From positions 1 through 30,965 of the IMG/VR virus record IMGVR_UViG_3300042546_000415: 30,965 bases of DNA. One strand, written 5' to 3'. This DNA comes from a virus. Shown in pieces: positions 9,220-22,779 of the stretch. The position numbers and the translations under genes were made by a program. The first letter of the stretch is position 1, and each line of letters starts with the position of its first letter. The notes under the pieces were generated by a model. It was not told the DNA's origin. It worked only from the letters and a program-made list of their open reading frames with translations, and did no database searches.

Positions 9220-9480
9220 TTATTCGTTTTCTATTACTGGTTGAGGGAGTTTTAGAATTTCCGCTCTGAAAGCGTAGGCTCCGTGTCCTGCACGCGAACG
9301 CCTATATGAGAACTGCACGCATTCGTTGGAAAAACCTTGGATGGTTTCTGCGTCACAATCGCAATTTCCGCGTGCAATAGCTGTTCCGAAGTAGTCGGAT
9401 ATTCTCAGATTGGTTATCTTGCCAAGCGGAGCGAGAAGTTGTGCGATCAGTTCGTCCATCGTTAAAGTCGGCGTTGTCAA
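9220..9480 (-). CDS. Hypothetical head-tail or tail protein
   Basis: An 86-residue protein starting MTTPTLTMDELIAQLLAPLGKI. It overlaps the previous gene by 4 bases. It contains two closely spaced Cys residues (CDC) and a third further on, and a basic stretch SYRRSRAGHGAYAFR. No family was recognised. The neighbours suggest a connector or tail-completion role. Confidence 0.5.
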   Translation of the reverse strand: MTTPTLTMDELIAQLLAPLGKITNLRISDYFGTAIARGNCDCDAETIQGFSNECVQFSYRRSRAGHGAYAFRAEILKLPQPVIENE

Positions 9481-9878
9481 CTTTGAACAATGCCGAGCAG
9501 CATTGTCAGTGTGTGGGTGTAGTTGTTTTCCTCGATACCCAAGTCCACATCCAAGATTTTGCCGCCTGCCGCAGTATGCCCCGATGCAACTGCGTTGTAG
9601 TTCGTGTAGAGGTTCGGGCTATGAATTGCGTTGACCACGGAAGTCACCACATTCCCGTGCGAATCCAAGCTGACGCTTGGGGCAGGGGAGGTGACTATGG
9701 CCCGTATGGTTGCCTTCCAGAGTTTGCCGACGACATTTTCGCAACGCTCGCAGGAGACAATCGCAAATGTGGTGTCGTTTGGAGTCAAAGTTTCGTCGGC
9801 GAGTTTTGCGACATGAAGCGTTGGAACCGCAGTAGCAATCGCGTGTTCAAAGGCTTTTTCGATCAGTCCTGCGTTCAT
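9477..9878 (-). CDS. Tail completion/terminator-like protein
   Basis: A 133-residue product from the ATG that overlaps the upstream stop (ATGA). A second in-frame ATG lies 18 bases upstream without a ribosome site. The N-terminal helix (MNAGLIEKAFEHAIATAVPTL) followed by beta-rich sequence resembles tail terminator proteins such as lambda gpU in size and layout. In lambda-like order the tail terminator follows the head-tail joining protein, as here. The assignment is positional. Confidence 0.5.
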   Translation of the reverse strand: MNAGLIEKAFEHAIATAVPTLHVAKLADETLTPNDTTFAIVSCERCENVVGKLWKATIRAIVTSPAPSVSLDSHGNVVTSVVNAIHSPNLYTNYNAVASGHTAAGGKILDVDLGIEENNYTHTLTMLLGIVQS

Positions 9879-10201
9879 TTGCGGTGGCGCACGCATTCAA
9901 GCGTGACATAAGGCGTTGCAGTGTTTGAGCGAACCCCGTCGAGGAGGTAGCGAATGTTTCCGGCGTCGATGGTGACTTGCGATTTTGGCGCAGCCAGAAC
10001 AACGGTTTCGTAATCCTCGCGCAGAACAACAATCTCCGTGATTTGTTGCTGTTCCAGTCCTCCCCTTACGAGTTTTACATTCTCCCTGTTGTCGTCAATG
10101 GTCGCAGATACTTCGATGCCATTGATAACCACTGTTTGCCCAAAAAGACGCAACGATTCGTTGTATCCATCAAGCATCGTGTTTTGAAGGTCTGCGTCCA
10201 T
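9875..10201 (-). CDS. Head-tail joining protein (gpFII-like by position)
   Basis: A 108-residue beta-rich protein: MDADLQNTMLDGYNESLRLFGQTVVINGIEVSATID. The N-terminal helix followed by a beta barrel-like region, the small size, and placement directly after the major capsid fit the gpFII family of connector-completion proteins. The start lies 5 bases beyond the edge of a strong terminator hairpin, so its ribosome site overlaps or is close to the stem. Confidence 0.6.
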   Translation of the reverse strand: MDADLQNTMLDGYNESLRLFGQTVVINGIEVSATIDDNRENVKLVRGGLEQQQITEIVVLREDYETVVLAAPKSQVTIDAGNIRYLLDGVRSNTATPYVTLECVRHRK

Positions 10202-10206
10202 AAATC

Positions 10207-10236
10207 AAAAGCCCCGCCGTAATTGGCGGGGCTTTT
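10207..10236 (-). terminator. Strong bidirectional terminator after the major capsid gene
   Basis: Perfect 12-base arms, AAAAGCCCCGCC and GGCGGGGCTTTT, flank a 6-base loop. On the minus strand the GC stem is followed by TTTT. It lies 24 bases after the capsid stop and 5 bases before the next start. It would cut transcription of downstream tail genes relative to capsid genes, unless antitermination occurs. Confidence 0.85.
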
Positions 10237-10260
10237 ACCAAAAACCAAGTCCAGCCCCGA

Positions 10261-11226
10261 TTAGATTTGAGTTGCCAGAAGTTCTCCTGCTGTCTGGTCG
10301 ATCACCTTTTCGGTGGAGTGTTGGCGAACGCGAACCATGTCGCCGCGCCGTCCCTCGTTCCGATAGGTTTCAGTCACAAACAGATCGGGAGCATCCCCTG
10401 TCCAGATGATTTGGCGAACCGCACCGCCAGCGGCAAAGTCTCCGCTTCCGGTGGCTCCAATCCAGATGTAGTCATCGTTCCAGATGTGTTCCAGAGTCGG
10501 CCCCTTGTTCTTGCTGGCAATGTCGTGCTTGGCGGCAGCTACGATGACATTTGCGATTCCGAAAACGGAAGCGATGTCGCCGGGATTCACCAAGCGTTGT
10601 TGCCCCGAAGGAAGGTTGCCGAAGATGTAGGTCTGAAGTTTTGGAGAGCGGCGAAGGCGATTCCACAACGAGAGGTTAAGAACCATCGTGTTTGGAGCAA
10701 TGCCCTTACCAGTCAGACGGTCAAGTGCTTCGTTTACATCACGCGCCAAGTCGATGTTGGCAAGTTGAGCCTCACTATAAGCGACTGTGGTATTAGTCGA
10801 AGTGAAGTTGGCGGGGTTGTAGAGAACGCCAGCGCAACGAACTTCCATAGCGAGACGCATTTGGCGAAGAACCATTTGCGCGGTGATGACTTCTGCATCA
10901 AAGAAGCGGGAAAAATCACGGGCATAGGCATCGTCAATTCGCTCCTCAAGACCACGATCCACACAATCAAATGTGTCCTGTTCGTGAGCGCGAGTGGTTT
11001 CATTGTAGCTTCCGTCAGGGCCGCGAAGGGTGAAATCGGCCTCACCGTCCTTTGACTTGAGCAAGTTGCCCAAGGCTGTGCGGATGCGTGGGTAGATTCC
11101 CGTGCGAGTTGGCGAGGAGTAAACCCCGAAGATTCGTGGAGCGACCAGAAGAGATTCTATACCCGCCGCCTCAATGACGAAGGTATTGATGTCGCTGCGG
11201 ATGATTGCGTTAGTATTGGAATACAT
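10261..11226 (-). CDS. Major capsid protein
   Basis: A 321-residue protein in the capsid position of a lambda-like head operon, after the decoration-like gene. It starts MYSNTNAIIRSDINTFVIEAAG. Residues around 70-120 (ETTRAHEQDTFDCVDRGLEERID) and the helical segment that follows resemble the E-loop and spine region of gpE-type HK97-fold capsid proteins. The C terminus is beta-rich (VRQIIWTGDAPDLFVTETY). The length fits the family. A strong terminator follows, as expected for a highly expressed gene. Confidence 0.85.
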   Translation of the reverse strand: MYSNTNAIIRSDINTFVIEAAGIESLLVAPRIFGVYSSPTRTGIYPRIRTALGNLLKSKDGEADFTLRGPDGSYNETTRAHEQDTFDCVDRGLEERIDDAYARDFSRFFDAEVITAQMVLRQMRLAMEVRCAGVLYNPANFTSTNTTVAYSEAQLANIDLARDVNEALDRLTGKGIAPNTMVLNLSLWNRLRRSPKLQTYIFGNLPSGQQRLVNPGDIASVFGIANVIVAAAKHDIASKNKGPTLEHIWNDDYIWIGATGSGDFAAGGAVRQIIWTGDAPDLFVTETYRNEGRRGDMVRVRQHSTEKVIDQTAGELLATQI

Positions 11227-11234
11227 GGCTTAAA

Positions 11235-11603
11235 TTAGGCTTGAGTTTTACCGTTGATCGCCACCGCTTCCACAAAGTCTCCATTGGAGACGGCATGGAG
11301 CGCACGATAGAGCGGGTGCTTGTTTGCGCTTTGGGTTGATGAAACTAATCCACTTGCGGCGGGATAAAGAAGTGCGCCCACGGCAACACTGCCGCTTGCA
11401 ATAACCTCAAATGTTCCGCTGGCATTGTGGAGCTTCACAGCAACAGGTTCTCCGCTGTTGCAATCGCGTTCGACCACGCCGATGTGTTTCGATTCGTCGG
11501 CATCGGCGGCAATCGCCTTGCCATTTGCGTCAAGCATGACGCGGTTTCCTTTAACGAGTGCCGCTGCCGACACAAAGTTTCGATAGCCTGTGTTGTTTTG
11601 CAT
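11235..11603 (-). CDS. Capsid decoration/cement-like protein
   Basis: A 122-residue Ala/Gly/Val-rich protein: NFVSAAALVKGNRVMLDANGKAIAADADES, then GVVERDCNSGEPVAVKLHNASGTFEVIASGSVAVGALLYPAASG. This pattern of a small beta barrel with a conserved GExVAV segment is typical of DUF2190-type and related capsid decoration proteins. It sits between protease/scaffold and major capsid, the position of lambda gpD. Confidence 0.75.
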   Translation of the reverse strand: MQNNTGYRNFVSAAALVKGNRVMLDANGKAIAADADESKHIGVVERDCNSGEPVAVKLHNASGTFEVIASGSVAVGALLYPAASGLVSSTQSANKHPLYRALHAVSNGDFVEAVAINGKTQA

Positions 11604-11607
11604 AGAA

Positions 11608-12564
11608 TTAGATCAGTTGAAGTCCCTTGGATTGAAGATCAGCCTTACGCAGTTCGGGAAACTGTTTTTCGGCAATTTTGATAGCTTCAGTCGCTTTGAT
11701 TCCGGCATTCTGCTTGGTAATCATTTCAACCGCTTCGCTGAAATCTTTTGGCGCGTTTGAACCGGATGTTTCAGAGTTTGCCGCAGGATTAGCGGTGTTT
11801 GAAATGTTCTTGAGTGTCGCTGTGACAGCTTCAAGTTTCGTCTCAAGTTCGCTCATCTTGGAATCAAAGTCGGTTTTGGAAAGAGTATCGCCCATCTCCT
11901 CGTCCTCTTTTTCCTCGTCCTCTTTTTCCATTGCGCGTTTCAGTTCGCCAAGCAATGCCTCAAGACTGGAAAACCGCTTTTCAGAGTTTTCGCGGTATTT
12001 GTCTTGCGTGTCGCACCATTTTTTCATGTCGGTGGATTCGTCTTCGGTTTTTTTAGTATCGCCCATACAAACATTGTTTTCCGTGTCAACTTGAGGCTCA
12101 CTTAAAAGACCGTCTGGATTGGCCGCTGGATCGGTCACAATATCGCAACTGCGAATCCGGTTGCATCGCGCAAAAGTTTCGCCATCTTTTGTTTCATGCT
12201 GTCCGTGAATGCTTACTGACATACCAAATGTGTCTGGCAGTTCACGGGCGAGTTCCAGAATGTGCGCTGCCTTTTCAGCAGTCTTCAACAAGTGCAAGTC
12301 CGCCTTGAGTTTGTCGCCCTCGATACGAAAGTTTTTTACGCTTCCAACGATGCTGAACACCCCGCCGCCATGATCGACTTTAACCTTTACCCCGTTTTGG
12401 AACTCGCTGGCAGCGGACAACACCTGTTCAAGTGTGGTGTCGTCAATCGTAAGATCGTGTCCTCTCGCTGGCCCCTTCGTCATCACGCTAACATTGCGGA
12501 TGATGCCGGAATCGGCGTCGATTTCGCCGGAATCGGCAAGGCATAGAAAAGGCAAGTTCTTCAT
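11608..12564 (-). CDS. Prohead protease fused to scaffold-like region
   Basis: A 318-residue protein. The N-terminal half matches the phage prohead protease pattern: KVDHGGG with candidate catalytic His65, GMSVSIHG with Ser116 or Ser118, and DIVTDPAANPDGL around residue 141. The second half is Lys/Glu-rich and coiled-coil-like (about residues 185-260), with acidic repeats KEDEE, as in scaffolds. An internal ATG at residue 224 (position 11895) follows an AGAGGA element, so a separate 95-residue scaffold could be made as in lambda C/Nu3. It would cleave and be cleaved during procapsid maturation. Confidence 0.8.
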   Translation of the reverse strand: MKNLPFLCLADSGEIDADSGIIRNVSVMTKGPARGHDLTIDDTTLEQVLSAASEFQNGVKVKVDHGGGVFSIVGSVKNFRIEGDKLKADLHLLKTAEKAAHILELARELPDTFGMSVSIHGQHETKDGETFARCNRIRSCDIVTDPAANPDGLLSEPQVDTENNVCMGDTKKTEDESTDMKKWCDTQDKYRENSEKRFSSLEALLGELKRAMEKEDEEKEDEEMGDTLSKTDFDSKMSELETKLEAVTATLKNISNTANPAANSETSGSNAPKDFSEAVEMITKQNAGIKATEAIKIAEKQFPELRKADLQSKGLQLI

Positions 12565-12584
12565 GCCCTTTCCGTGATGTCAAT

Positions 12585-12962
12585 TCACACCATTTTTGAA
12601 ACCGCTTTTTTGCTCCAAAACTTGCAAGACCAATACCGTGCTTTCCACTTGGGGCCGGGGTTCGCGCAGTTGTGACGGGAACGGAAGTTCTTACGCGACT
12701 CAGGATCGTCCCGCTTAATGCTCATGTTTGGATCGCCAAAATTGACTTTCACAATGTTTCCATTGTCGTTCTTCACATAAACAGAAAACTTTTTGGGGCC
12801 GTTCGGAGTCCGAAAAGGCTTGTTGAGTTTCTTCTGTGCCTCTCCTAATTCGAGATCATCCAAAACCTCCTCGGAATATCCGTGTTCAGCATCACAAAAT
12901 TTCTCGATGTGATCGTTGTAAAGGTCGTTGACCTTTTTCATGCAACAGCATTGTTTTTTCAT
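12585..12962 (-). CDS. Conserved phage head-region protein, Cys-rich N terminus
   Basis: A 125-residue protein overlapping the preceding gene by 4 bases (ATGA). It begins MKKQCCCMKKVND. The C-terminal half has a conserved-looking core: KFSVYVKNDNGNIVKVNFGD, then IKRDDPESRKNFRSRHNC and NPGPKWKARYWSC. Proteins with this core are seen in tailed phages near prohead protease genes. Its biochemical role is not known to me. Confidence 0.65.
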   Translation of the reverse strand: MKKQCCCMKKVNDLYNDHIEKFCDAEHGYSEEVLDDLELGEAQKKLNKPFRTPNGPKKFSVYVKNDNGNIVKVNFGDPNMSIKRDDPESRKNFRSRHNCANPGPKWKARYWSCKFWSKKAVSKMV

Positions 12963-13180
12963 AGGATATTCCCGCTGTCATCTATCAATCCAGCGTCAAT
13001 GTAATCTCCTACGGTTTCTCCATTGCCAACCAAGTCTTCCCTGTGCTTCGATGCGCTCCACTCTTCGTCTTCGGCGCAGGATTTCTCATAGTCGCCCCAG
13101 TTTTTTTTATCCGTTGCGTTCATTTCTGGCGCAATCGGCGGAACATAGTTTTTATCGGGGTTTTTGCCTGTTGGTTTCAT
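12959..13180 (-). CDS. Small acidic hypothetical protein
   Basis: A 73-residue product from the ATG that overlaps the portal stop (ATGA). A further in-frame ATG 12 bases upstream is less likely. It is Asp/Glu-rich and contains KKNWGDYEKSCAEDEEWSASKHRE. No family was recognised. Its coupling to the portal gene suggests a head-related accessory role. Confidence 0.55.
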   Translation of the reverse strand: MKPTGKNPDKNYVPPIAPEMNATDKKNWGDYEKSCAEDEEWSASKHREDLVGNGETVGDYIDAGLIDDSGNIL

Positions 13181-15873
13181 TTGACTTTCCATCCAGAAAA
13201 TAAGTTAGGATCAATGTATTTGCCAAGTGCCATTTGAGGCGTATTTCCAATTTGATCTGATGCAAGTTTTGCAACTTCTAATTTCGCTCGTTTCATTTCC
13301 CTATCAGAGCTAAATGTTTTGCTCTTGCCAATTTTTTCGATTGCTTTTCCAGCTATGTTACAAGCTGTTGCCGTGCGAATGTTTTTAGCCTTTTTAACTC
13401 CGACTGATTTGAAATATAAATTGAGGCCAGACTCGGTTGTATTGAATAATCGTTCCGTTGGGCTTTCGCATTGCGATTTTCTTTGCAATAACGACTCCGC
13501 AACAAAGCCAGACACAGTATGAGATACTTGCTCACCGTGTTTTTTTCCCGGCACATAAGTAATTTTTGCTCTGCTTGGGCCAAGTCTTTCGATGTGGCGA
13601 GCTTCCCATGTAGTGACTCCGTATGTCGGGCCGTCATAATCTTTTGCCCCTCCTGTTTTACTTTCGCTCCTTTGTTTTTTTGATGTTGGGGATTCTTTTT
13701 TTCTGGATGCTCCTACTGACCCCGGCCTTGCTCCAGTTGCAATCATTGCAAGGGCGCACTCTGCCGCATCTGCACGGTCATAATCTCTGGTTTGCGTGGC
13801 GTCCTTGTTTAGCTGTTCTTGAATTTTTGGGATTCTGGCAACAAGTTTTTCCACTTCCTTAAAATTAGAACCTTGATTTGCGGAAACGGTTTGATCGGTT
13901 TGCCTGTCCATCGACACTCCGCGTTTATACACGGATTCACCAGTCATCTTCCACTTTGCTTTAGGGTTTTCTGGTTCCGTGCTAATTGTTACATTTGTAA
14001 TGCCCGGAGCGAGTTTTGCCCACGGTGGTAACGGTTTTCCGTCTGCTAAAGTTCGGTTTACTTCAAAAACTTCCCTTGGTTTCCCATCTTTTCCTTTTAC
14101 GGTTTTTGTTTTTCTTTGTTTCTCTACCACAACAAAATGCGGAATAGGGTCTTTTTCTAATTTTACTATTCCCCTTTTGCTATCTACAACCGTGTGCGGC
14201 AGTCCGCCTCGCACCTTGCTTCCATCTTGCCCAAGTGAACCAGATTTGCTTTTTGCTCCCTTTCCTTCGCCTCCTGCGGAACAAGTGTTACCCTGTTTGA
14301 ATCCCCCCGCGCCCGTGCCGCAGTTGAACTCGGTCACATGGCGATCCCAAAGCTCATTGAAGGCTTGCTTGGGTTCCTTTTTTTTAACCGCAACCTGTGG
14401 TGCGGCTGGCTTCTCGGTTTGATCTTCTTGAGTGGGGTTAGGGTTGCGTTGTGATAGACGGTCAACGGGGATTCCGTATTCTTTGGATAGCCTGTCGAGA
14501 GTTTGCTGTTCGCGTGCCAGTTGCTCAAACTCCTCCTCCCAATCCTTGCCCTGTTCAGCAAAAATATCGGATGCCGTTTTCAGTCCAAGTTTGTGTTCTT
14601 CGATGTTCGCCGTGCTTTCACGCCCGATGTCTGCTGTGGGCCAAGCCGAAAACTGCCAACGACCAATGCGCCAAGTTTTTACGGCTTTGATGATATTGTT
14701 GGAGATAGCCCATGCCATGAAATCATTTTTCAACGGCTCCAAAACGGCATCAGTAATGAGTTGCTGATAGCGAGCGCAAGCGCGGCGTGCCTTTTGACTG
14801 TCCAGCCTTCCAGTGACGCCTCCGCTATCTTTCGAGTTCACAAAAAACCCGTATGGGATTTGCAGTGCGAGGCAAACCTGACGCTCCAGTTGCTCGATGA
14901 ACATTTCAAATGTCGCATTCGGGCGTGCCGTCTGGAATGGCTTTATGCTTTCTCCGGCTTGCAGGTAATTGATTGTGCCGTAGTTGACCTCCTCCACATG
15001 GTTCCCCTTGGAATCAGTCGTAGTTGCCCACTCGTCCGGTTCGCCTCCTTGCTTTTCAATGATAGCCGTGTTGCTGCTGTTCCACTTCACAGCAAATTTT
15101 TCGTAGCGCAAAATGTCGTGAATGTCTCGGCAGGTAGGAATTGCTGTGTCGAGAACGGTAATGCCGCGATATTGGTCAATGCGGAGCGGATCGAAAATGT
15201 GACGGAATTGATTTGCCGGAACATCAATCGGATCGACATACAGACCCTCGCGGGTGCGTCGATATACTCTATACCCTTTGGGTTCTCCTGTTTTCGGATT
15301 TACAATTACGCCGGAAAAATAGCTGTCCAGTTCATCCGTGTTTGTAAGCCAGTTTTCGTGCGGTCTTCCGATGCGATCACCTTCAATCAGTTGAATACGA
15401 AATTCAGAACCGCTCATCCGTTTCACAAAGCCGCAATCTCCGTCACGCAACATGGCAATAAATGCCAATCGGACGAGGGAGGCGAAGTTGTGTCTGCCGG
15501 AAAGGTCGCATTGCCTGCACCAAAACTCCCACGCTTCTTCGTATTGGGCATCCCGCTTTGCATCGCCAGTGCGTGCTTGGTAGCGAATCGTTCCGAAAGT
15601 ATAGGTGGCGAGTTCCATTATCAGGCCACGCACCAACGGACTATTTTGCATCAGATCACGGGCTTCTGCCATCAGTTGAACCCTGTCTCGCGCCGAGGAG
15701 TGAGATTCGCTGGATAGCGTTTCGTGCATCCCGACAAGTTGCCTGTCCCGCGAACTCATGGCCCCCTCGTATCGGAACTCGGTAAGCATTTCCCTCGCTT
15801 TGAGGCGACGAACTGCTGTTGAAGGACTTACAAACTCTAAAAGCCTGTCGATAAAATTTGCCTTGGGTGTCAT
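13177..15873 (-). CDS. Portal protein with C-terminal topoisomerase IB domain
   Basis: A single 898-residue frame, much longer than lambda-type portals (about 530). Residues 1 to about 480 are a lambda-like portal: NSPLVRGLIMELATYTFG, DGDCGFVKRM, IEGDRIGRP and the helical LALQIPYGFFVNSKDSGGVTGRLDSQKARR. Residues 480-575 are a low-complexity linker with CGTGAGGFKQGNTC at 518-531. Residues about 580-898 match virus/bacterial topoisomerase IB: PWAKLAPGITNVTIS, YGVTTWEARHI, and catalytic positions Arg716 (TGARPGS), Lys777 (VPGKK), Arg833 (NIRTATA), Asn877 (IGNTP, as in bacterial enzymes) and Tyr886 (GKYIDP). The portal part forms the DNA-entry ring. The fused enzyme could relax DNA at the vertex, which is an inference. 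Confidence 0.9.
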   Translation of the reverse strand: MTPKANFIDRLLEFVSPSTAVRRLKAREMLTEFRYEGAMSSRDRQLVGMHETLSSESHSSARDRVQLMAEARDLMQNSPLVRGLIMELATYTFGTIRYQARTGDAKRDAQYEEAWEFWCRQCDLSGRHNFASLVRLAFIAMLRDGDCGFVKRMSGSEFRIQLIEGDRIGRPHENWLTNTDELDSYFSGVIVNPKTGEPKGYRVYRRTREGLYVDPIDVPANQFRHIFDPLRIDQYRGITVLDTAIPTCRDIHDILRYEKFAVKWNSSNTAIIEKQGGEPDEWATTTDSKGNHVEEVNYGTINYLQAGESIKPFQTARPNATFEMFIEQLERQVCLALQIPYGFFVNSKDSGGVTGRLDSQKARRACARYQQLITDAVLEPLKNDFMAWAISNNIIKAVKTWRIGRWQFSAWPTADIGRESTANIEEHKLGLKTASDIFAEQGKDWEEEFEQLAREQQTLDRLSKEYGIPVDRLSQRNPNPTQEDQTEKPAAPQVAVKKKEPKQAFNELWDRHVTEFNCGTGAGGFKQGNTCSAGGEGKGAKSKSGSLGQDGSKVRGGLPHTVVDSKRGIVKLEKDPIPHFVVVEKQRKTKTVKGKDGKPREVFEVNRTLADGKPLPPWAKLAPGITNVTISTEPENPKAKWKMTGESVYKRGVSMDRQTDQTVSANQGSNFKEVEKLVARIPKIQEQLNKDATQTRDYDRADAAECALAMIATGARPGSVGASRKKESPTSKKQRSESKTGGAKDYDGPTYGVTTWEARHIERLGPSRAKITYVPGKKHGEQVSHTVSGFVAESLLQRKSQCESPTERLFNTTESGLNLYFKSVGVKKAKNIRTATACNIAGKAIEKIGKSKTFSSDREMKRAKLEVAKLASDQIGNTPQMALGKYIDPNLFSGWKVK

Positions 15874-16109
15874 CGTGTTGATCCGAAAAATGCCAGTGTT
15901 TTACTTGCTCCCTTGCGCCGTTTTTCATTGAGTGCCTTGACAGCGGACTCCAGTTTTTCGGCAACAAATTGAATGTCGCGGCTTGCGCTGACACCTCCAC
16001 CGCTATTGCTGGTAAACTCCGAGCGGTATTTCTGTTTCAAGTTCTGAATTTCAATTTCCAACTCGTCGATTGAGAAGGAGCGGTAAATCAGCAAGTGGTC
16101 GGCAGCCAT
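15870..16109 (-). CDS. Head completion protein, gpW-like
   Basis: A 79-residue product from the ATG one base after the terminase stop, with AGGAAAG upstream. An earlier in-frame ATG inside the terminase gene is unlikely. The sequence is helical: SIDELEIEIQNLKQKYRSEF and then FVAEKLESAVKALNEKRRKG. Lambda gpW is 68 residues, basic and helical, and is encoded between the large terminase and the portal, exactly this position. The 4-base overlap with the portal start fits the operon. Confidence 0.72.
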   Translation of the reverse strand: MAADHLLIYRSFSIDELEIEIQNLKQKYRSEFTSNSGGGVSASRDIQFVAEKLESAVKALNEKRRKGASKTLAFFGSTR

Positions 16110-16110
16110 A

Positions 16111-17883
16111 CTAAGTGTCTTTCCTGTCAACCGCCGTTGGCTCACTAACGGCAATCTTCGTTATCATTGCCGCCACAAGATTCATGCACTCGCAGTCAAA
16201 AGCGTGGTTGTCTTTGCGGATTTGAAGCCATTCGTAGCTCACTCGTCCTTTGGCATCCACCCGTTCTTCTCGGATTTCGGCGGTAACTTCATCGAGATAT
16301 TGTTGCGATATGTCGGATGGAATTTCCCACGATGAAGCGAGTCCTCTCATGTGTTGCAACAGGATGTCTTTGGTCAAATGGTTAGCCCAAAGAAACAGCT
16401 TAACGGGCTTGAGTTTTCCTTGCAGAGAAGTTCCGATTGCGGGGTCTGCCCGTGAACTCGTCCAGCATCGGCGAACCCCATCGTGAGAATAAGCCTGCAC
16501 TCCGTCTCCCTTGAATGCCTTCCACTTGTGTTCGCTTTTGACGATTTCCTGATAAACAACCGTGGCGTTGTAGCCCGTATCAATCACAACATCGTCGTTG
16601 TCCACGCCAAGATCGACAATCAACTGCCGCAACTCGTCCCAATTCCACACGCGCCCGTAGTCAACAAGTCTGCTTGTCCCTCCGTTGCCCCAAGCCCGAC
16701 ACAGGTAAACCAAGTGGTCTTTCTGCACATCGACTGACAAGAACCTTCGTTTCTCATCTTTCCAAGTGCTACGGAGCGTGTAGTCGGTTTTGCGTTCCTC
16801 AAGCCACTTCCAATCTTTAATGTCCTTCATCGCATCCTCCCAAGGTTGACCAAGGGATTCGTTGATGAATGATTTCAGCTTCTCATGGTCGTGCCATGTT
16901 AGGCTTTTGTGCGCCTGCAAAAACTCCTCTACCAGATCGCGCCACCTAACCCACGGGGGAAGCATGGCATTCCAAGTGAAGCTAATTCGGTTGGCGGGAG
17001 CGTCAGGATTATGGGCAATCCACTCACCGCTTAGAGCGAGGGCGCGTCGATCCTGCGGCTTATCATGGATATGGTGATTGCACTTTGGGCATTCCAAGTG
17101 AATCGTCGGTGCAAGTTTGTCAAAATTCCAAACCCCGTTTGGTCTGGTTTGCTCGTTGTCGTCCCACTTCAACTGCTCCCATTGAATGTGGAAGCGTCCT
17201 TTGCACTTCGGGCATTGAACATAGAAGTGCCGTTGGTCGCCACTCAAGAACGCTTGGTGAACCTCGTCATGTTGCGAGTCCGGCGTTGAAATGATGACCC
17301 GTCTGGCGTTCCAGAATGCGCGTGTGCGCTTCAACACCATCTCCAAAGCTCCAGCGGGGTAGTTGCGAACCTCGTCCAGAAACAACCAACGGATCGGTTT
17401 GGATTGCAGTTTTGACGGACTATTTGCGCCGTTTACAATCAGCGGCATCGAGGCGAAGTCGATTTCTGTCCCTCGGATTCCTCCCCTTTCCTTCGGCATC
17501 AGATCGGCAACGGGCTTGCAGTCTTCCAGTGTTGGCAACAGTCGGGTTCTAAAAAATGTTCGCGCCTCATCTTGCGCTGCCATTACCCACATGGCGGGGC
17601 CAGCGTCTTCGGAGATTGCCCACGCCAGCAGAATCATAATCGTTTGGGTTTTCGATGACTGCGCCGAACACATCACAGAAATTTCCGAAACGGCATTATC
17701 CGAAAACACCTCCATCAAAGATTTTGTCCAAGGAGCGGTATCGGCTCGGAACTTGCCAGCAAACGGGGATGTTTTGTCGATTACAATGTTGTCCTCGGCC
17801 CATGCCCACGGAGGGCGGCGATCTATTGGACGCCACGCTTCCCGTGCCGTTTTCTCGATAAGGCTAATCCCACTTTTTTTCAT
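16111..17883 (-). CDS. Terminase large subunit, GpA family
   Basis: A 590-residue packaging motor. The ATPase half has a Walker A-like CSAQSSKT (72-79) and Walker B LFLDEV (167-172). The family zinc-binding pair is CPKC at 224-227 and CPKC at 265-268. The nuclease half carries acidic candidates in FLSVDVQKD (Asp385), DVVIDTGYNA (Asp435) and HAFDCE near residue 573. This order and length match lambda gpA-type terminases (Terminase_GpA). It overlaps the small terminase gene by 20 bases. GpA enzymes cut at specific cos-type sites, so this phage may have cohesive ends, which is an inference. Confidence 0.93.
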   Translation of the reverse strand: MKKSGISLIEKTAREAWRPIDRRPPWAWAEDNIVIDKTSPFAGKFRADTAPWTKSLMEVFSDNAVSEISVMCSAQSSKTQTIMILLAWAISEDAGPAMWVMAAQDEARTFFRTRLLPTLEDCKPVADLMPKERGGIRGTEIDFASMPLIVNGANSPSKLQSKPIRWLFLDEVRNYPAGALEMVLKRTRAFWNARRVIISTPDSQHDEVHQAFLSGDQRHFYVQCPKCKGRFHIQWEQLKWDDNEQTRPNGVWNFDKLAPTIHLECPKCNHHIHDKPQDRRALALSGEWIAHNPDAPANRISFTWNAMLPPWVRWRDLVEEFLQAHKSLTWHDHEKLKSFINESLGQPWEDAMKDIKDWKWLEERKTDYTLRSTWKDEKRRFLSVDVQKDHLVYLCRAWGNGGTSRLVDYGRVWNWDELRQLIVDLGVDNDDVVIDTGYNATVVYQEIVKSEHKWKAFKGDGVQAYSHDGVRRCWTSSRADPAIGTSLQGKLKPVKLFLWANHLTKDILLQHMRGLASSWEIPSDISQQYLDEVTAEIREERVDAKGRVSYEWLQIRKDNHAFDCECMNLVAAMITKIAVSEPTAVDRKDT

Positions 17884-18442
17884 GCAGTTTTCTTATGACC
17901 TCATCTACTTGGTCTTTGATTCGCTTTTCAGCCTCGGCCACTTTCATGCCAACAACTTGCGGGGCAAGCGTGCTTGGCATTTGCTCCAGAACCTTTTTAG
18001 CTGTCGCTACCATACGGAACACCTCTCGCGCCACTTCGTCGTTTGCCGTGTAGTTCCCGCGAGCAATTTCCAGTTCCAAGTCCAATCGTTCGCAAATGGT
18101 GCGGAGTCTCCTAACCTCCAGCTTGTTTCTTTCGTCGTCTGGATCGTCCTCCGCAATTTTGCGCCCCGTTTTAGACGCCCATTCTCTAAATTCCGGTATG
18201 CTATACCTCCCGTCTGATCGGGCTTGTGGACATCCTTTGATTTTTAACCACCGCTGGATCGTCTTGCGCTCGACGCCTAATATATCTGCGAGTTCAACTT
18301 GATTTTTAGCCCATCCTTGATCGCCTGTGTTTCCGTCTGCCAGACCTTGAATCTGCGACAACTCCATACTCGAAAGGGTTTTCCCTTCCGTTACTTTGCG
18401 GATAATGTTCAGCAGATTCTTTTTGAGAATCTTGCTTGCCAT
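17864..18442 (-). CDS. Terminase small subunit, Nu1-like
   Basis: A 192-residue product from the ATG preceded by AAAGG at 7 bases. An in-frame ATG 33 bases upstream at 18475 has no clear ribosome site but cannot be excluded. An N-terminal helix-turn-helix, NQVELADILGVERKTIQRWLKIKGCPQ, fits the winged-helix DNA-recognition domain of small terminases. The second half is a long charged helix (NKLEVRRLRTICERLDLELEIARG) likely to mediate oligomerisation. It would bind the packaging site and recruit the large subunit. Confidence 0.82.
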   Translation of the reverse strand: MASKILKKNLLNIIRKVTEGKTLSSMELSQIQGLADGNTGDQGWAKNQVELADILGVERKTIQRWLKIKGCPQARSDGRYSIPEFREWASKTGRKIAEDDPDDERNKLEVRRLRTICERLDLELEIARGNYTANDEVAREVFRMVATAKKVLEQMPSTLAPQVVGMKVAEAEKRIKDQVDEVIRKLHEKKWD

Positions 18443-18482
18443 CTCTGCGCCTTTACCTTCTATTTTTTCTTCCATTTTTTTC

Positions 18483-18511
18483 TGGACTTAGAATACGGCC
18501 CCGAATATAGT
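18483..18511 (+). promoter_or_regulatory. Candidate promoter for the DUF488 gene
   Basis: TGGACT and TATAGT are separated by exactly 17 bases, in the short divergent gap between the small terminase and the plus-strand gene. Transcription would begin within a few bases of the ATG at 18522, giving a nearly leaderless mRNA. The -35 match is only four of six. Confidence 0.35.
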
Positions 18512-18521
18512 CGTATGCTCC

Positions 18522-18944
18522 ATGAAAACAAGCTATTACACACACGCGGCATCCTTAAACAAAACCAAGTTTTTCCTCGTTCGCACCTCTATTGGTTCCC
18601 CACGATTTTTGAAATGTGATTGCAATGCGTCTTTTCTTGCGCCGGAACAAGACTGGCTTGACTTAACCGAGGCATCTTATCGGAGAAAATACATCGCAAA
18701 GCTCAATAAGTTTGGCGTTGCTCAATTCAAGTCGGAATTTGCCGAGATTCAAAAGTCCGCAGGGAAACGCGAGATCGTTCTCCTTTGCTATGAGTCTCTT
18801 TCGCCAGAAAAGGTTGAAGAGGGTCAGTTTTGCCATCGCAGGATTTTTGCCGATTGGTGGGAGCAACAAACTGGCGAGAAAGTAGAGGAAGTTACTCCGC
18901 ATCGCTCTCGACCTGCTCGACCTGTTCAGCCGACTCTTCTTTGA
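18522..18944 (+). CDS. DUF488 family protein
   Basis: A 140-residue protein with the DUF488 pattern: an N-terminal FFLVRTSIGSPRF strand, FLAPEQDWL, the YRRKYIAKLNKFG helix, REIVLLCYESL and the C-terminal CHRRIFADWWEQQTGEKVEE. The biochemical activity of the family is not established to my knowledge. It is the only convincing plus-strand gene inside the leftward operon. Its last 53 bases overlap the end of the ParB-like gene tail to tail. The reversed orientation and own promoter candidate suggest an independently acquired gene. Confidence 0.82.
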   Translation: MKTSYYTHAASLNKTKFFLVRTSIGSPRFLKCDCNASFLAPEQDWLDLTEASYRRKYIAKLNKFGVAQFKSEFAEIQKSAGKREIVLLCYESLSPEKVEEGQFCHRRIFADWWEQQTGEKVEEVTPHRSRPARPVQPTLL

Positions 18945-19602
18945 GGAGTCCTTGGAGTTTCCTGCCGTCGATGTATCGGTTGTCATCCAGACCGAGAGAG
19001 TCTGTGAAATCTTTCCTCGCGGCATAATTTTTGAAAACCACGACACAGTAAAAGTCGGGGTCGTTGTTGTCTTGCGCTCCTGCTACCAACTGTTCATTGG
19101 CTTCACGGGCTTTCCGTAGCTGTTCAGCCATAACTTCAATCGCGGAGTTTTCTGCTGCATCCGGCGACTCTCCGAAGAGTTGGTAAACATCACTGAGGTC
19201 AAAGCCCGTGTTTTCCAACTCGATTTCTGCGTCTTTCAAAAGGGAATTGAGTTTTTCCAAGTCCCAATCGCCTTGTGCATTGGCGTTGTTCAGAAAAACA
19301 TTCAGTTCCTTTTCTGTTTTCTCATCAACATCAACAACAGCGACAGACATCGTGTAGTCCATCGTGCGCTCCAAGTCATCCAGCGCAGAGACTCGCTGAT
19401 GTCCTCCGACTATGTGACCAGTGCGCTTGTTCCAGCAGATCGGCTGAACAAGACCAACCTTCCCCAAGCTGTCGCGGAGTTTTTTCCGTGAATAGTCGGA
19501 AATCTGACGGGGATTGTAGGGAGCGTTTTTAATTTCGCTCCGATGAATCTGCTCTACGACGAATTTCTGGAACGCTGTTTGTTTTTCATCCTTCTTAGCC
19601 AT
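18892..19602 (-). CDS. ParB/sulfiredoxin-fold protein
   Basis: A 236-residue protein. The N-terminal region has the ParB signature: NPRQISDYSRKKLRDSLGKVGLVQPICW, then GHIVGGHQRVSAL with GGHQR at residues 66-70, and ELNVFLNNANAQGDWD. No typical ParB helix-turn-helix follows. The C-terminal half contains DFYCVVVFKNYAARKDF and an acidic tail. It starts inside the PP-loop gene end (8-base overlap) with GAGG upstream, so the two proteins are coupled. The pairing recalls IbrB/IbrA-type couples found in phages and islands. A role in DNA binding or nucleotide chemistry is inferred. Confidence 0.82.
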   Translation of the reverse strand: MAKKDEKQTAFQKFVVEQIHRSEIKNAPYNPRQISDYSRKKLRDSLGKVGLVQPICWNKRTGHIVGGHQRVSALDDLERTMDYTMSVAVVDVDEKTEKELNVFLNNANAQGDWDLEKLNSLLKDAEIELENTGFDLSDVYQLFGESPDAAENSAIEVMAEQLRKAREANEQLVAGAQDNNDPDFYCVVVFKNYAARKDFTDSLGLDDNRYIDGRKLQGLLKEESAEQVEQVESDAE

Positions 19603-20260
19603 ACATTTCCTCTCGTTTGATTACTGCCTCTGCATACGGAAACCATTTGAGAATCCGCTGAAAATCGTCGGGGAAATTTTTGTGAACAAAGAGTAGCGAT
19701 GGCGTTGAAAGATCAACTCCGGTTGCCGATGCCGTGGTGGACATTTTCGGAATAGGGATTCCCCTTACTTTGCAATACGCAAGAACATCCAACTTGTTCC
19801 ATTTCCGCACTGGATAAACCATGTCTGTCCAACCCTTCGTTGTGTTGAAAAATCTTCTTCGCCAGAGCGAATCAGCATCCTTTGCGCCCGTGACTATGTA
19901 TTTTGTTCCTGCTTCCGTCCGAGCGAGATCGTAAACATCACGAAGCGTCCAATCCGGCAATGTTTCGGCATTCTTCCCCTCATCGCAGTAAATGCCTGCT
20001 TTCAATGCGCGGATCAGAACCCAATGCGGATATTGCACGATTTGAACATTCCATCTTGCCCTCGCGTAATCCAACGCATCCTCCGTGCATTTCAAATTTG
20101 GAACGAAGTGCATGAAGAAACAATGCACCTTCTTGAACACCCTCGAACACAAATCGAGACATACCAAGCTGTCCTTGCCACCGCTGAATGCTACGGTGAT
20201 CGAATCACTCTCCTTTTGCTTTTCCCTCAGAAGATCGAGGGTGTCTTGCCAGATTTGCAT
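19595..20260 (-). CDS. PP-loop PAPS reductase-like protein
   Basis: A 221-residue protein with the ATP-binding PP-loop SGGKDS at residues 26-31. It continues with HFVPNLKCTEDALDYAR, YIVTGAKDADSLWRRR and WTDMVYPVRKWNKLDVLAYC, the pattern of the PAPS reductase/ATP pyrophosphatase superfamily. Phage members often sit beside a ParB-like gene, as here. Members include sulfur-activating and DNA-modifying enzymes such as DndC, so nucleotide or sulfur chemistry is possible. The substrate is unknown. The start follows an SD-less leader at 20263-20283. Confidence 0.85.
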   Translation of the reverse strand: MQIWQDTLDLLREKQKESDSITVAFSGGKDSLVCLDLCSRVFKKVHCFFMHFVPNLKCTEDALDYARARWNVQIVQYPHWVLIRALKAGIYCDEGKNAETLPDWTLRDVYDLARTEAGTKYIVTGAKDADSLWRRRFFNTTKGWTDMVYPVRKWNKLDVLAYCKVRGIPIPKMSTTASATGVDLSTPSLLFVHKNFPDDFQRILKWFPYAEAVIKREEMYG

Positions 20261-20262
20261 AA

Positions 20263-20283
20263 TTTTTGATTAGGTTGATTGAT
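20263..20283 (-). promoter_or_regulatory. SD-less leader motif, copy 2
   Basis: On the minus strand this reads ATCAATCAACCTAATCAAAA plus one more A, two bases before the ATG of the PP-loop gene. It differs at one position from the leader at 8507-8527. Similar CAATCAATCAA text precedes the plus-strand regulator at 26996. Confidence 0.55.
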
Positions 20284-20323
20284 AAAATTTCCGCGTGCGG
20301 GATGCGCGGCCCCCTTCGACGGA

Positions 20324-20485
20324 CTAACCGCCGCCGCCGCCGCCGCCTGTGGGCCTACCTGCGGGCTTCTTTGGTTTAACCTTTGGCTTAACCTTTGGCG
20401 GCTTACCAGTTGGCTTAACCTTTGGTTTAACCTTTGCCGTAACTTTGCGTCCGCCGACCTTCGGTTTCAATTTTGCTTTTGCCAT
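20324..20485 (-). CDS. Lys/Pro-rich basic microprotein with poly-Gly tail
   Basis: A 53-residue gene with a near-perfect ribosome site, AAGGAGGTGA, 7 bases before its ATG. The protein starts MAKAKLKPKVGGRK and is built from repeats of KVKPKVKP, then ends with seven Gly residues. The composition (mainly Lys, Pro, Val and Gly) resembles histone H1-tail-like nucleic acid-binding proteins. It is the first gene of the leftward operon, just inside the control region. Function is inferred from charge only. Confidence 0.7.
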   Translation of the reverse strand: MAKAKLKPKVGGRKVTAKVKPKVKPTGKPPKVKPKVKPKKPAGRPTGGGGGGG

Positions 20486-20561
20486 GTCAATTCACCTCCT
20501 TTCATCTTCGCTCTTTGCGTGGTGTCAAATCCGGCAGTTCATCCGGGCCAATGGGTAAAAC

Positions 20562-20577
20562 GCAGGGAAAACCCTGC
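20562..20577 (-). other. Leader hairpin upstream of the Lys/Pro-rich gene
   Basis: Six-base arms GCAGGG and CCCTGC flank an AAAA loop, in the 5' region of the leftward transcript. The CCCTGC/GCAGGG motif recurs in several intergenic hairpins of the right block. Confidence 0.4.
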
Positions 20578-20657
20578 TTAAACACAGTATTTTCACAGAA
20601 GGACAGCACAAATTACTCAAAATCAACGGTTTACACAAGCAAAAAAGATGGAAAAAG

Positions 20658-20672
20658 AGGTGACAGACACCA
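20658..20672 (-). promoter_or_regulatory. Operator-like palindrome O1 with upstream -10 candidate
   Basis: On the minus strand the site reads TGGTGTCTGTCACCT, two mismatches from the perfect 15-base palindrome AGGTGTCTGACACCT found at 27274 and 27594. A minus-strand TATAAT lies at 20684-20689, just upstream, so a repressor here could block leftward transcription near its start. No convincing -35 was found. Confidence 0.5.
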
Positions 20673-20699
20673 GTATTTTTGAGATTATATGGACAGTTC

Positions 20700-21290
20700 T
20701 TTGACAGATAGATGAAGCGGAAAGGTGAGAGGCAAGTCCCTCTCCCGACAACGAGTGCCACAGCACCGGAGGATGATCCCGAAACGGAGCCACCGACCAG
20801 AATGCGACGAGCAGGACGGAAACGACAAGGCGAAGTGCGGAACTAAAAAATAGCCCTCCAAGAGTGGCAGTAGCGAAATGCGAATGTCGGGTAGGTCAGC
20901 ACAGACCAGATGGGCGGCGAGCGAAAGCGACAAAGTGTGACGAACGAACCGATCAAGTGGAGTCTCAAACGGAGCGGAAAGTCCGAGAAACAGAAGTTGT
21001 AGCAAACACGGAGCAAGAAAAACCCTGCACCGGAAACTTGCCACCCTGCGATAGCAGTAAGGGCAGGTGGTTCTGCGGACAGCAAGCCACTCGGTAAACC
21101 TTTCCCATCAGCAAGTGCCTTTGACTTGCCGACCGTCGCTTATTGCAAACCTCGCAAACCAAGCTGGCAAAAACACCATGCCGTTCATCGGCTCCCAAAG
21201 TTGCCACCCTGCGAGGGGTTAATGCCGCCAGACTTGCAAGCGCAAGTCTGCTCGTCCCAAGCCGAGAGAAAAGTGCAGAGGGGCCAACAG
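20700..21290 (+). ncRNA. Candidate structured noncoding RNA / divergent control region
   Basis: About 590 bases without a convincing gene on either strand. The plus strand is purine-rich with many short stems: GAGAGG/CCTCTC (20727-20744), GTGC/GCAC (20755-20766), GGTC/GACC (20894-20907), GCGAAAGC (20921-20928), CGGA/TCCG (20970-20985) and a 9-base perfect stem at 21229-21250. GAAA-type loops and GGAAAC text recur. This texture resembles a large structured RNA, but no known class was recognised. It might be only a leader or replication region. Strand is chosen from the GNRA-like loops. Confidence 0.4.
21229..21250 (+). repeat. Perfect 9-base hairpin
   Basis: CAGACTTGC and GCAAGTCTG flank the tetraloop AAGC. 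No T run follows, so it is not a typical terminator. It lies about 50 bases before the first rightward gene. Confidence 0.6.
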
Positions 21291-21299
21291 CAAACATCA

Positions 21300-21515
21300 A
21301 TGCAATCAATGAAACTGAAACCCAAAACAACAACCGCCGCTACTGCGGCATCCACCGCCGAAATCGACCTCTACAAAGGAAACCCAATGCTGGTTCTCAA
21401 ATCAGCACCGGATACCAAGTGGCCGTTCCAGTTCGGCATGAGTAAAGCCAAGCTCATCTTGGCTCACATCAAACAGATCGAATCCTTTGTCGCATCCAAC
21501 GGAGCGGCACTCTGA
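21300..21515 (+). CDS. Small conserved phage protein
   Basis: A 71-residue product (68 from a second ATG at 21309). After a Lys/Thr/Ala-rich start it has EIDLYKGNPMLVLKSAPDTKWPFQFGMSKAKLILAHIKQIESFV. Proteins with the YKGNP and FGxxKAKLI pattern are common in phages and are usually uncharacterised. It is the first gene of the rightward block and precedes the MoxR-like ATPase. The initiation region contains a 20-base stretch also found inside the gene at 24558. Confidence 0.7.
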   Translation: MQSMKLKPKTTTAATAASTAEIDLYKGNPMLVLKSAPDTKWPFQFGMSKAKLILAHIKQIESFVASNGAAL

Positions 21516-21531
21516 ACCAAACACAACCCAA

Positions 21532-21541
21532 ACACACACGA
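21532..21541 (+). promoter_or_regulatory. ACACACACGA leader, copy 1
   Basis: The element ends 2 bases before the ATG at 21544. No purine-rich ribosome site is present between the previous stop and this start, so the A/C-rich leader probably serves initiation. Confidence 0.5.
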
Positions 21542-21543
21542 CC

Positions 21544-22779
21544 ATGCCAAGAAAATCAACAACCCTCGACACTCCCGAACTTCGGGAGCTTGTTACAGAA
21601 ATTGTCGGCTCCTGCGAAGTCGATATTGATTACGACACAGTTTGCTCAACGCTGACCAGTGACGCCAAATCCTTCAACGCAATCGCTGGAGGCGTTGCCG
21701 GACACAGTTCGGTAGTCAATTCATGCCGAGGAATTGCCGAGGTCAAAGCCACGGAAACCGCTATTGCTGTTGCCACAGCGAGAGCAGACGCGATTGCCAC
21801 CCGTGCTGTTGACGCCATCAAGCAAGCTATCAACGCCGCTCTTGCCGAACCCGAAGCAACTCCTGCAAAAGTTCGCCGTAAGCTGGCTCCTGTTATACCG
21901 ACTGCAATCAGTCCGATTGCTAAAGAAGTTCAGACATACTGCTCTCCGAAACGGGCGGTTGTTCCGCTCCTTCTTCTTGGTGAGCAAGGTGCTGGCAAAA
22001 CCTACGGAGTGCGTAGCGAAGCTAAGAACTACGATCACTTCATTGAAGTTCCCTGTCATGCAGGGATGGAAGCGAAGGACTTCATCGGCGGCCCACTGCC
22101 AGACGGCAATATCTTTAGTTGGACTGACGGGGGAGTTGCCAGAGCGTTCCGCCTCGCGGCGGCTGGCAAGAGCGTTCTCCTTCTTGTCGATGAGATATTC
22201 CGTGTGCCACAAGCTCAACGATCTGTCTTCTTAACCTGCTTGTCTCCAGACGAGACGGGGGAAGAGCCAGTGTATAAGCTCAAGACCGAGCGAGTCATCG
22301 GAGTCAAAGGCGATGTGCGACACACAGAAGAACTCGTTGCTCCGGTTGCCAATCTGTCGATTGTCGGAACCACGAACATTGGAGGTCAGTTCAGCGTGAG
22401 TGAAGACGACCCTGCGATGGCGGAACGCTGGCAGTTCCATTATGTCTATTGCTCCGCCGCTGAAATCGGTCGCGTCATTCAGTCTGTCTTAGAATCTGGC
22501 GGCATGAGCAATGCAGATGCGGCAAGTCTCACTGCAATGTATGTCCAGTTTTGGACTAAGGCATCCGAACTCAAAAAACTCGGCACGATCAACCTTGCGC
22601 CGACTATTCGGACTCTAACCCGTGCGGCGAAAATTGCCACCGCCGATACTGCTAAAGCCCATTACGAAGCTGTAATGCGAGTCGCCCCAATGTGGGCCGG
22701 AACCGACCTCGATGGTCGTCTCAACACTGCACAAATCGAAAACATCAACATCGCCGCGAAAGGATCATTCAAATGCTAA
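21544..22779 (+). CDS. MoxR/CobS-like AAA+ ATPase
   Basis: A 411-residue product. The start is placed at the ATG after the ACACACACGACC leader, not at the upstream in-frame ATG at 21487. Walker A is GEQGAGKT (146-153), Walker B VLLLVDE (211-217), and sensor 1 lies at SIVGTTN around 273-279. DPAMAERW resembles the arginine-finger/sensor region of MoxR enzymes. The N-terminal 120 residues are Ala/Thr-rich and helical. MoxR ATPases work with VWA-domain partners to remodel target proteins. The next gene encodes such a partner and overlaps by 7 bases. Confidence 0.88.
   Translation: MPRKSTTLDTPELRELVTEIVGSCEVDIDYDTVCSTLTSDAKSFNAIAGGVAGHSSVVNSCRGIAEVKATETAIAVATARADAIATRAVDAIKQAINAALAEPEATPAKVRRKLAPVIPTAISPIAKEVQTYCSPKRAVVPLLLLGEQGAGKTYGVRSEAKNYDHFIEVPCHAGMEAKDFIGGPLPDGNIFSWTDGGVARAFRLAAAGKSVLLLVDEIFRVPQAQRSVFLTCLSPDETGEEPVYKLKTERVIGVKGDVRHTEELVAPVANLSIVGTTNIGGQFSVSEDDPAMAERWQFHYVYCSAAEIGRVIQSVLESGGMSNADAASLTAMYVQFWTKASELKKLGTINLAPTIRTLTRAAKIATADTAKAHYEAVMRVAPMWAGTDLDGRLNTAQIENINIAAKGSFKC

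Follow-up and report, generated by a model that had tools for sequence, protein, structure and literature searches.

A topoisomerase IB domain in the exchangeable C-terminal tail of a lambda-type phage portal protein

Results

A portal gene with a long C-terminal extension

The sequence studied (hereafter, the window) was an entire virus record from IMG/VR, 30,965 bases long. A single open frame on its minus strand, 13177-15873, encodes an 898-aa protein with three parts: a portal core of the lambda type, ending near residue 480; a Cys/Gly linker; and a topoisomerase IB of two domains (TopoIB; about residues 575-898). The gene sits between those for a GpA-type terminase and a major head protein. 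The features are as follows:

16111..17883, minus strand: terminase large subunit (GpA), upstream of the portal gene (Pfam GpA_ATPase, E 3e-44; GpA_nuclease, E 1.6e-33)
14434..15873, minus strand: gpB-type (lambda) portal core with C-terminal crown, residues 1-480 (Pfam, phrog_21, gpB profile and model match)
14191..14433, minus strand: low-complexity linker region, residues 481-561, containing the Cys/Gly motif; low pLDDT at residues 476-529
14281..14325, minus strand: recurrent Cys/Gly linker motif NCGTGAGGFKQGNTC, residues 517-531 (DNA pattern match)
13900..14139, minus strand: N-terminal beta (clamp) domain of TopoIB, residues ~579-658 (strands at 18-97 of the model; aligns with the N-terminal regions of human and variola TopoIB)
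13180..13896, minus strand: TopoIB catalytic domain, residues 660-898 (Pfam PF01028, PDB and fold matches)
13726..13728, minus strand: catalytic Arg716 (GARPGS), invariant in 74 homologues
13543..13545, minus strand: catalytic Lys777 (PGKKHG), invariant in the same 74
13375..13377, minus strand: catalytic Arg833 (KNIRT), invariant in the same 74
13243..13245, minus strand: catalytic Asn877 (GNTP), invariant in the same 74
13216..13218, minus strand: nucleophile Tyr886 (KYI), invariant in the same 74
11608..12564, minus strand: downstream head gene, putative maturation protease or scaffold, assigned by gene order
10261..11226, minus strand: major capsid protein (phrog_1005, major head protein, E 1.5e-26)

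The head gene at 11608..12564 matched no Pfam or PHROG family, and profile search identified no protease in the window. Between it and the portal gene lies a small gene (12585-12962; weak DUF5754 match; phrog_7595, E 6e-12). Elsewhere in the window, a ParB-like gene stands beside one for a PAPS-reductase-like protein (judged by eye) at 18892-20260, upstream of a small-terminase-like gene. A plus-strand pair at 21487-24437 encodes an ATPase (phrog_16448/phrog_249) and a peptidase-like protein (weak phrog_459); this is possibly a MoxR/CobS-type pair.

The portal part matched Pfam Phage_portal_2 (residues 43-342, E 2.4e-51) and phrog_21 (portal), and a profile of its family matched the lambda portal protein B, 8k38 (E 6e-18). 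In the predicted model, residues 50-479 aligned to gpB 38-512 with a Z score of ~27; the model as a whole was of moderate quality (mean pLDDT 66.9). Judged by sequence and predicted fold, the ORF carries a complete portal, of the lambda type that the preliminary description had proposed, and shares with gpB (8k38, 8xow) the full portal fold including the crown. The lambda crown comprises gpB residues 453-511, with the final 20 residues of the C-terminus unseen (PMC10721106); by this measure, all that follows residue ~480 here is extra. Whereas gpB stops about 20 residues past its crown, the window portal continues for about 420 more. The frame had been described as about 370 residues too long; with a core that aligns to gpB up to residue 479, we measured the extension at about 370-420 residues. 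No MuF family match was found in the window protein with Pfam or PHROGs.

The extension contains a complete topoisomerase IB

The C-terminal 319 aa matched Topoisom_I above the Pfam gathering score (E 6.6e-8), and a sequence search of the PDB returned Deinococcus TopoIB (2f4q/3m4a, E 6e-6). An AlphaFold model of residues 562-898 had a mean pLDDT of 86.5 and a pTM of 0.79; its best Foldseek matches were variola, Deinococcus and human TopoIB, with E values as low as 1e-10. VIA-align gave a Z score of 20.2 with human Top1 over 260 residues spanning both domains (model 14-336), and 19.5 with variola TopoIB. The best recombinase, XerH, scored 14.7 over 170 residues of the catalytic domain only, which places TopoIB above the tyrosine recombinases. 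The catalytic residues named earlier (R716, K777, R833, N877 and Y886) proved exact; all five fell in invariant columns when 74 viral TopoIB domains were aligned (first alignment column, residue 562). Sequence and model thus agree that the C-terminal part is a complete TopoIB, with clamp domain, catalytic domain and the full catalytic set, as had been claimed. From these residues, the enzyme is probably active.

Deinococcus radiodurans TopoIB (2f4q, 3m4a) and poxvirus TopoIB (2h7f) share the two-domain fold and the R-K-R-N/H-Y set with the window domain at about 20% identity. Unlike them, the window TopoIB is fused to a portal, and its first Arg is separated from the YG(V/L)(T/S)T motif by an insertion. 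Purifying selection was detected in testable TopoIB pairs (dN/dS ~0.13-0.19). The window domain forms a long branch (1.54) on a quick TopoIB tree, so its function could have drifted despite the intact catalytic residues.

A tyrosine recombinase identity was rejected on structure and on motif, there being no HxxR. In KNIR (830-833), Lys830 occupies the first position of the recombinase HxxR, and this Lys is nearly invariant among the 74 homologues. The same evidence bears on the idea that the domain nicks or rejoins a specific site, as at cos-like ends or in circularisation, in the manner of its tyrosine-family relatives. The catalytic fold is indeed common to tyrosine recombinases and telomere resolvases; however, the nearest fold and sequence are those of relaxing TopoIBs with a clamp domain, Lys830 replaces the first residue of the recombinase motif, and relatives with the same terminase lack TopoIB. 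We regard such end or junction processing as very improbable.

The portal tail is a swappable cargo slot

The nearest relative, locus L002, has the same portal and linker, with 83% DNA identity over window positions 14286-23248 (9 kb); similarity resumes at 77% from 9471 to 12950. Between 12950 and 14286, which is exactly the cargo, the two show no similarity, and homology ends at base 14286, inside the linker motif NCGTGAGGFKQGNTC. Past its linker, L002 carries a DRAT-type ADP-ribosyltransferase-like domain (Pfam E 8.8e-8). The L002 homologue of the small gene at 12585-12962 also follows the cargo, so the exchange ends just before this gene. The ART domain of L002 is followed by a second copy of the linker and then by a module that is the only cargo of another locus, L003 (E 1e-21). 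In this two-cargo portal (L002 8001-11087), the second module has NPSD..H and EVK motifs and looks PD-(D/E)xK-like by eye.

Of the 19 clusters that make up the portal family of the window, 16, including one fragment, bear extensions of 167-972 aa at the C-terminus, several with ART signatures, and the portal of L005 has no extension. The C-terminal domain thus differs between close relatives, both for the window and L002 and across the family. GC3 is 0.33 in the TopoIB cargo versus 0.53 in the portal part, which fits an acquired cassette. The same portal and linker with another cargo, and a homology break inside the linker, show from sequence that the portal C-terminal tail is a swappable cargo slot bounded by the Cys/Gly linker.

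Linker motifs are portable

The Cys/Gly linker that the preliminary description had placed between portal and TopoIB was located at residues 517-531. An exact DNA pattern for its NCGTGAGGF core matched 84 IMG/VR stretches encoding 52 distinct proteins. Their Pfam families, from a scan that also took in three related portals, were ART-PolyVal, ADPrib_exo_Tox, three portal families, MuF, prohead protease, Zeta toxin, 2H, GNAT and ATLF; within this set, TopoIB was found in the window only. In loci L007-L090 of IMG/VR, NCGTGAGGF..GN.C often recurs several times within one protein and also in neighbouring genes, ahead of ART or other effector domains. We did not find the NCGTGAGGF motif printed in the openly licensed literature.

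A second linker, HPR..G.F..G, precedes TopoIB in 56 of 118 listed cases (0.8 in shuffles), at a median of 14 aa before the domain, and is present in 29 of 515 other ORFs of TopoIB loci. Standalone TopoIB copies bear similar linkers. By these sequence patterns, the Cys/Gly linker is portable.

TopoIB occurs on several carriers in uncultivated phages

With the window TopoIB domain as a single query, no relatives were found among viral contigs, the domain being too divergent, and a mixed TopoIB alignment gave no conserved stretch usable for patterns. A portal-independent DNA pattern of the TopoIB active site matched at least 120 viral stretches, and a custom profile indicated that nearly all were true TopoIBs. 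A second, stricter pattern matched 54 viral stretches versus only 3 in 84,980 genomes. At least 122 distinct TopoIB ORFs were obtained, nearly all from uncultivated viral contigs and a few from annotated phage and plasmid records.

Fusion partners were assigned by custom profiles with PHROG confirmation. Among the listed 122 ORFs, 30 (the window included) had a portal as fusion partner, from at least three families: 25 of the phrog_146 type, 3 of phrog_2662/12 and 2 of phrog_21 (the window and L099). The search for other portals with the same extension was therefore positive, and uniqueness of the window fusion was rejected. Eight of the listed ORFs were fused to MuF-type head proteins. Among 61 listed short TopoIB ORFs, 27 shared their locus with a portal or MuF gene, always on the same strand; since contigs enter IMG/VR by virtue of their viral genes, this count is biased towards TopoIB beside portals. 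At L208 (2935-7110), a head maturation protease (phrog_530, phrog_12864) is fused to TopoIB, a third kind of head carrier. TopoIB occurs together with an ART toxin family at L166. A portal-TopoIB fusion at L295 (3976-6579) lies on a 100-kb contig of an Elusimicrobia MAG; it is possibly a prophage and a hint to the host group.

On a quick TopoIB tree, partner labels required 50 changes versus 55 in shuffles, which is close to random and argues that the module changes carrier freely. A single clade of portal-fused TopoIBs was rejected, since the window and L099, which share a portal family, were not sisters and partners switched often. By sequence, the TopoIB module has moved repeatedly between portals of several families, MuF-type proteins, a maturation protease and standalone genes, and it is common in uncultivated phages.

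We considered whether the window ORF is an artefact of assembly or annotation, with two genes joined in frame. The difference in GC3 between cargo and portal would fit such a join. However, one portal-TopoIB ORF (the L109 type) was identical, or differed by one synonymous change, across five IMG/VR contigs, there are many divergent fusions, and the same junction type occurs in L002. An artefact is hardly credible.

The fusion is absent from isolate phages and resembles known effector fusions

No portal-TopoIB fusion was found in 50,697 isolate-phage records, in which the viral TopoIB domain had one distant match. A related portal fusion was matched by 1,894 of the records, and none of these matches covered the TopoIB part. 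None of the isolate-phage TopoIBs found was portal-fused. The portal-TopoIB class thus seems invisible in isolate collections. The protein of Rhizobium phage RHEph12 at L095 (14071-15888; 605 aa) has a C-terminal TopoIB, with terminase, PAAR and tail-fibre genes in the same stretch, and is perhaps another virion-linked TopoIB.

The earlier statement that no portal with this enzyme had been described agreed with our search, which found no portal-topoisomerase fusion in the openly licensed literature. In the accessible text of two studies of polyvalent, virion-injected effectors (Iyer et al., 2017, PMC5512222; 2022, PMC9503650), enzymatic domains on portal and MuF proteins are interpreted as injected effectors; the C-terminal enzyme on a portal, the late-gene context and the modular exchange are as in the window, where an enzymatic domain likewise stands on a virion protein encoded between terminase and capsid genes. 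The portal cargos given there are PBECR RNase, 2H, InPase, Nudix and ART, not topoisomerase, a word that the accessible text of PMC5512222 has only in its reference list. The MuF polymorphic toxins of temperate phages (Jamet et al., 2017, PMC5576092) are portal-adjacent head proteins with swappable C-terminal domains, like the window tail; in the window, however, the carrier is the portal itself, without a MuF domain. The TopoIBs of the jumbo phages Motura, phiRSL1, Lu11 and PaBG are set apart by their description, which in the text available treats them under DNA topology and repair and leaves portal fusion unmentioned (PMC7824862). The portal-TopoIB fusion is best read as a variant within the known theme of portal/MuF (polyvalent) effectors.

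Discussion

Inside the capsid, the portal crown lies exposed and in contact with the packaged DNA (PMC10721106, PMC10359639). By homology, the window TopoIB, which follows the crown, would lie inside the capsid, and up to 12 copies on flexible linkers would sit beyond the crown against the packaged DNA. Type IB topoisomerases need neither ATP nor metal; such an enzyme could therefore work inside the head or at once after entry. Our reading is that the portal tail is a swappable slot that here holds an intact TopoIB, and that this is a virion-internal module beyond the crown which acts on the phage's own DNA; we give this reading as a whole a probability of roughly 0.62. TopoIB would then be a virion-loaded DNA-conditioning enzyme, which is the less sure step, and would nick and relax the phage's DNA once the DNA meets the portal. 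Alternatively, the linker might be cut and TopoIB leave with the genome, acting on the DNA that enters the cell. We prefer action on the entering genome, at or after entry, over relief of packaging torsion, since enzymes regarded by others as injected effectors occupy this slot and these carriers; we rate it at slightly less than an even chance. Portals outnumber MuF proteins as carriers (30 versus 8 among the ORFs listed), which counts against the reading as a whole and would also fit a portal-specific role.

In that portal-specific role, TopoIB would stay above the crown as part of the packaging machine, not a delivered effector, and relax twist during packaging or DNA exit. The crown position, by homology to lambda gpB and HK97, and carriage by portals of at least three families are consistent with this, as are the lower number of filled heads in T4 topoisomerase II deficiency and the torsional compression model of packaging (review PMC10893049). 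Against it, near-identical portals lack TopoIB and carry other enzymes, the module is also found on MuF proteins and a protease and as standalone proteins, and DNA packaging proceeds without it in isolate phages that have related portals. Tethered torsion relief is thus unlikely, although less so than the remaining alternative, in which delivered TopoIB nicks, relaxes or covalently binds host DNA and shuts down or reprograms the host, like the ART and toxin domains of the slot. ART domains do occupy the same slot, the linker family goes with ART-PolyVal, Zeta toxin, ATLF and 2H domains, and injected portal/MuF effectors are reported in the accessible text of PMC5512222 and PMC9503650; but DNA relaxation is not obviously toxic, and at most 12 copies would face a whole chromosome. 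A host-directed effector is improbable.

The preliminary description had placed a DNA relaxase at the packaging vertex, where it would serve packaging torsion or cos nicking. The position beyond the crown is supported by homology, and the enzyme may act at the vertex. A special property of the portal serving those ends is not supported, since the nearest relatives have other enzymes there and TopoIB rides on other carriers; both facts argue for a mobile, virion-internal cargo module.

The need to manage DNA torsion in phage packaging and ejection is debated. Natural portals with a head-internal topoisomerase, together with near-identical portals without one, make this question directly testable. 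That the portals of many uncultivated phages bear, on the side facing the capsid interior, a DNA relaxase that manages genome torsion during packaging or ejection is doubtful; if true, phages of several portal types would have solved a topological step of genome packaging repeatedly with the same enzyme. The portable motifs NCGTGAGGF..GN.C and HPR..G.F..GG flag cargo modules and could help to find more virion-carried enzymes, and the repertoire of portal/MuF cargo is extended to an enzyme of DNA topology.
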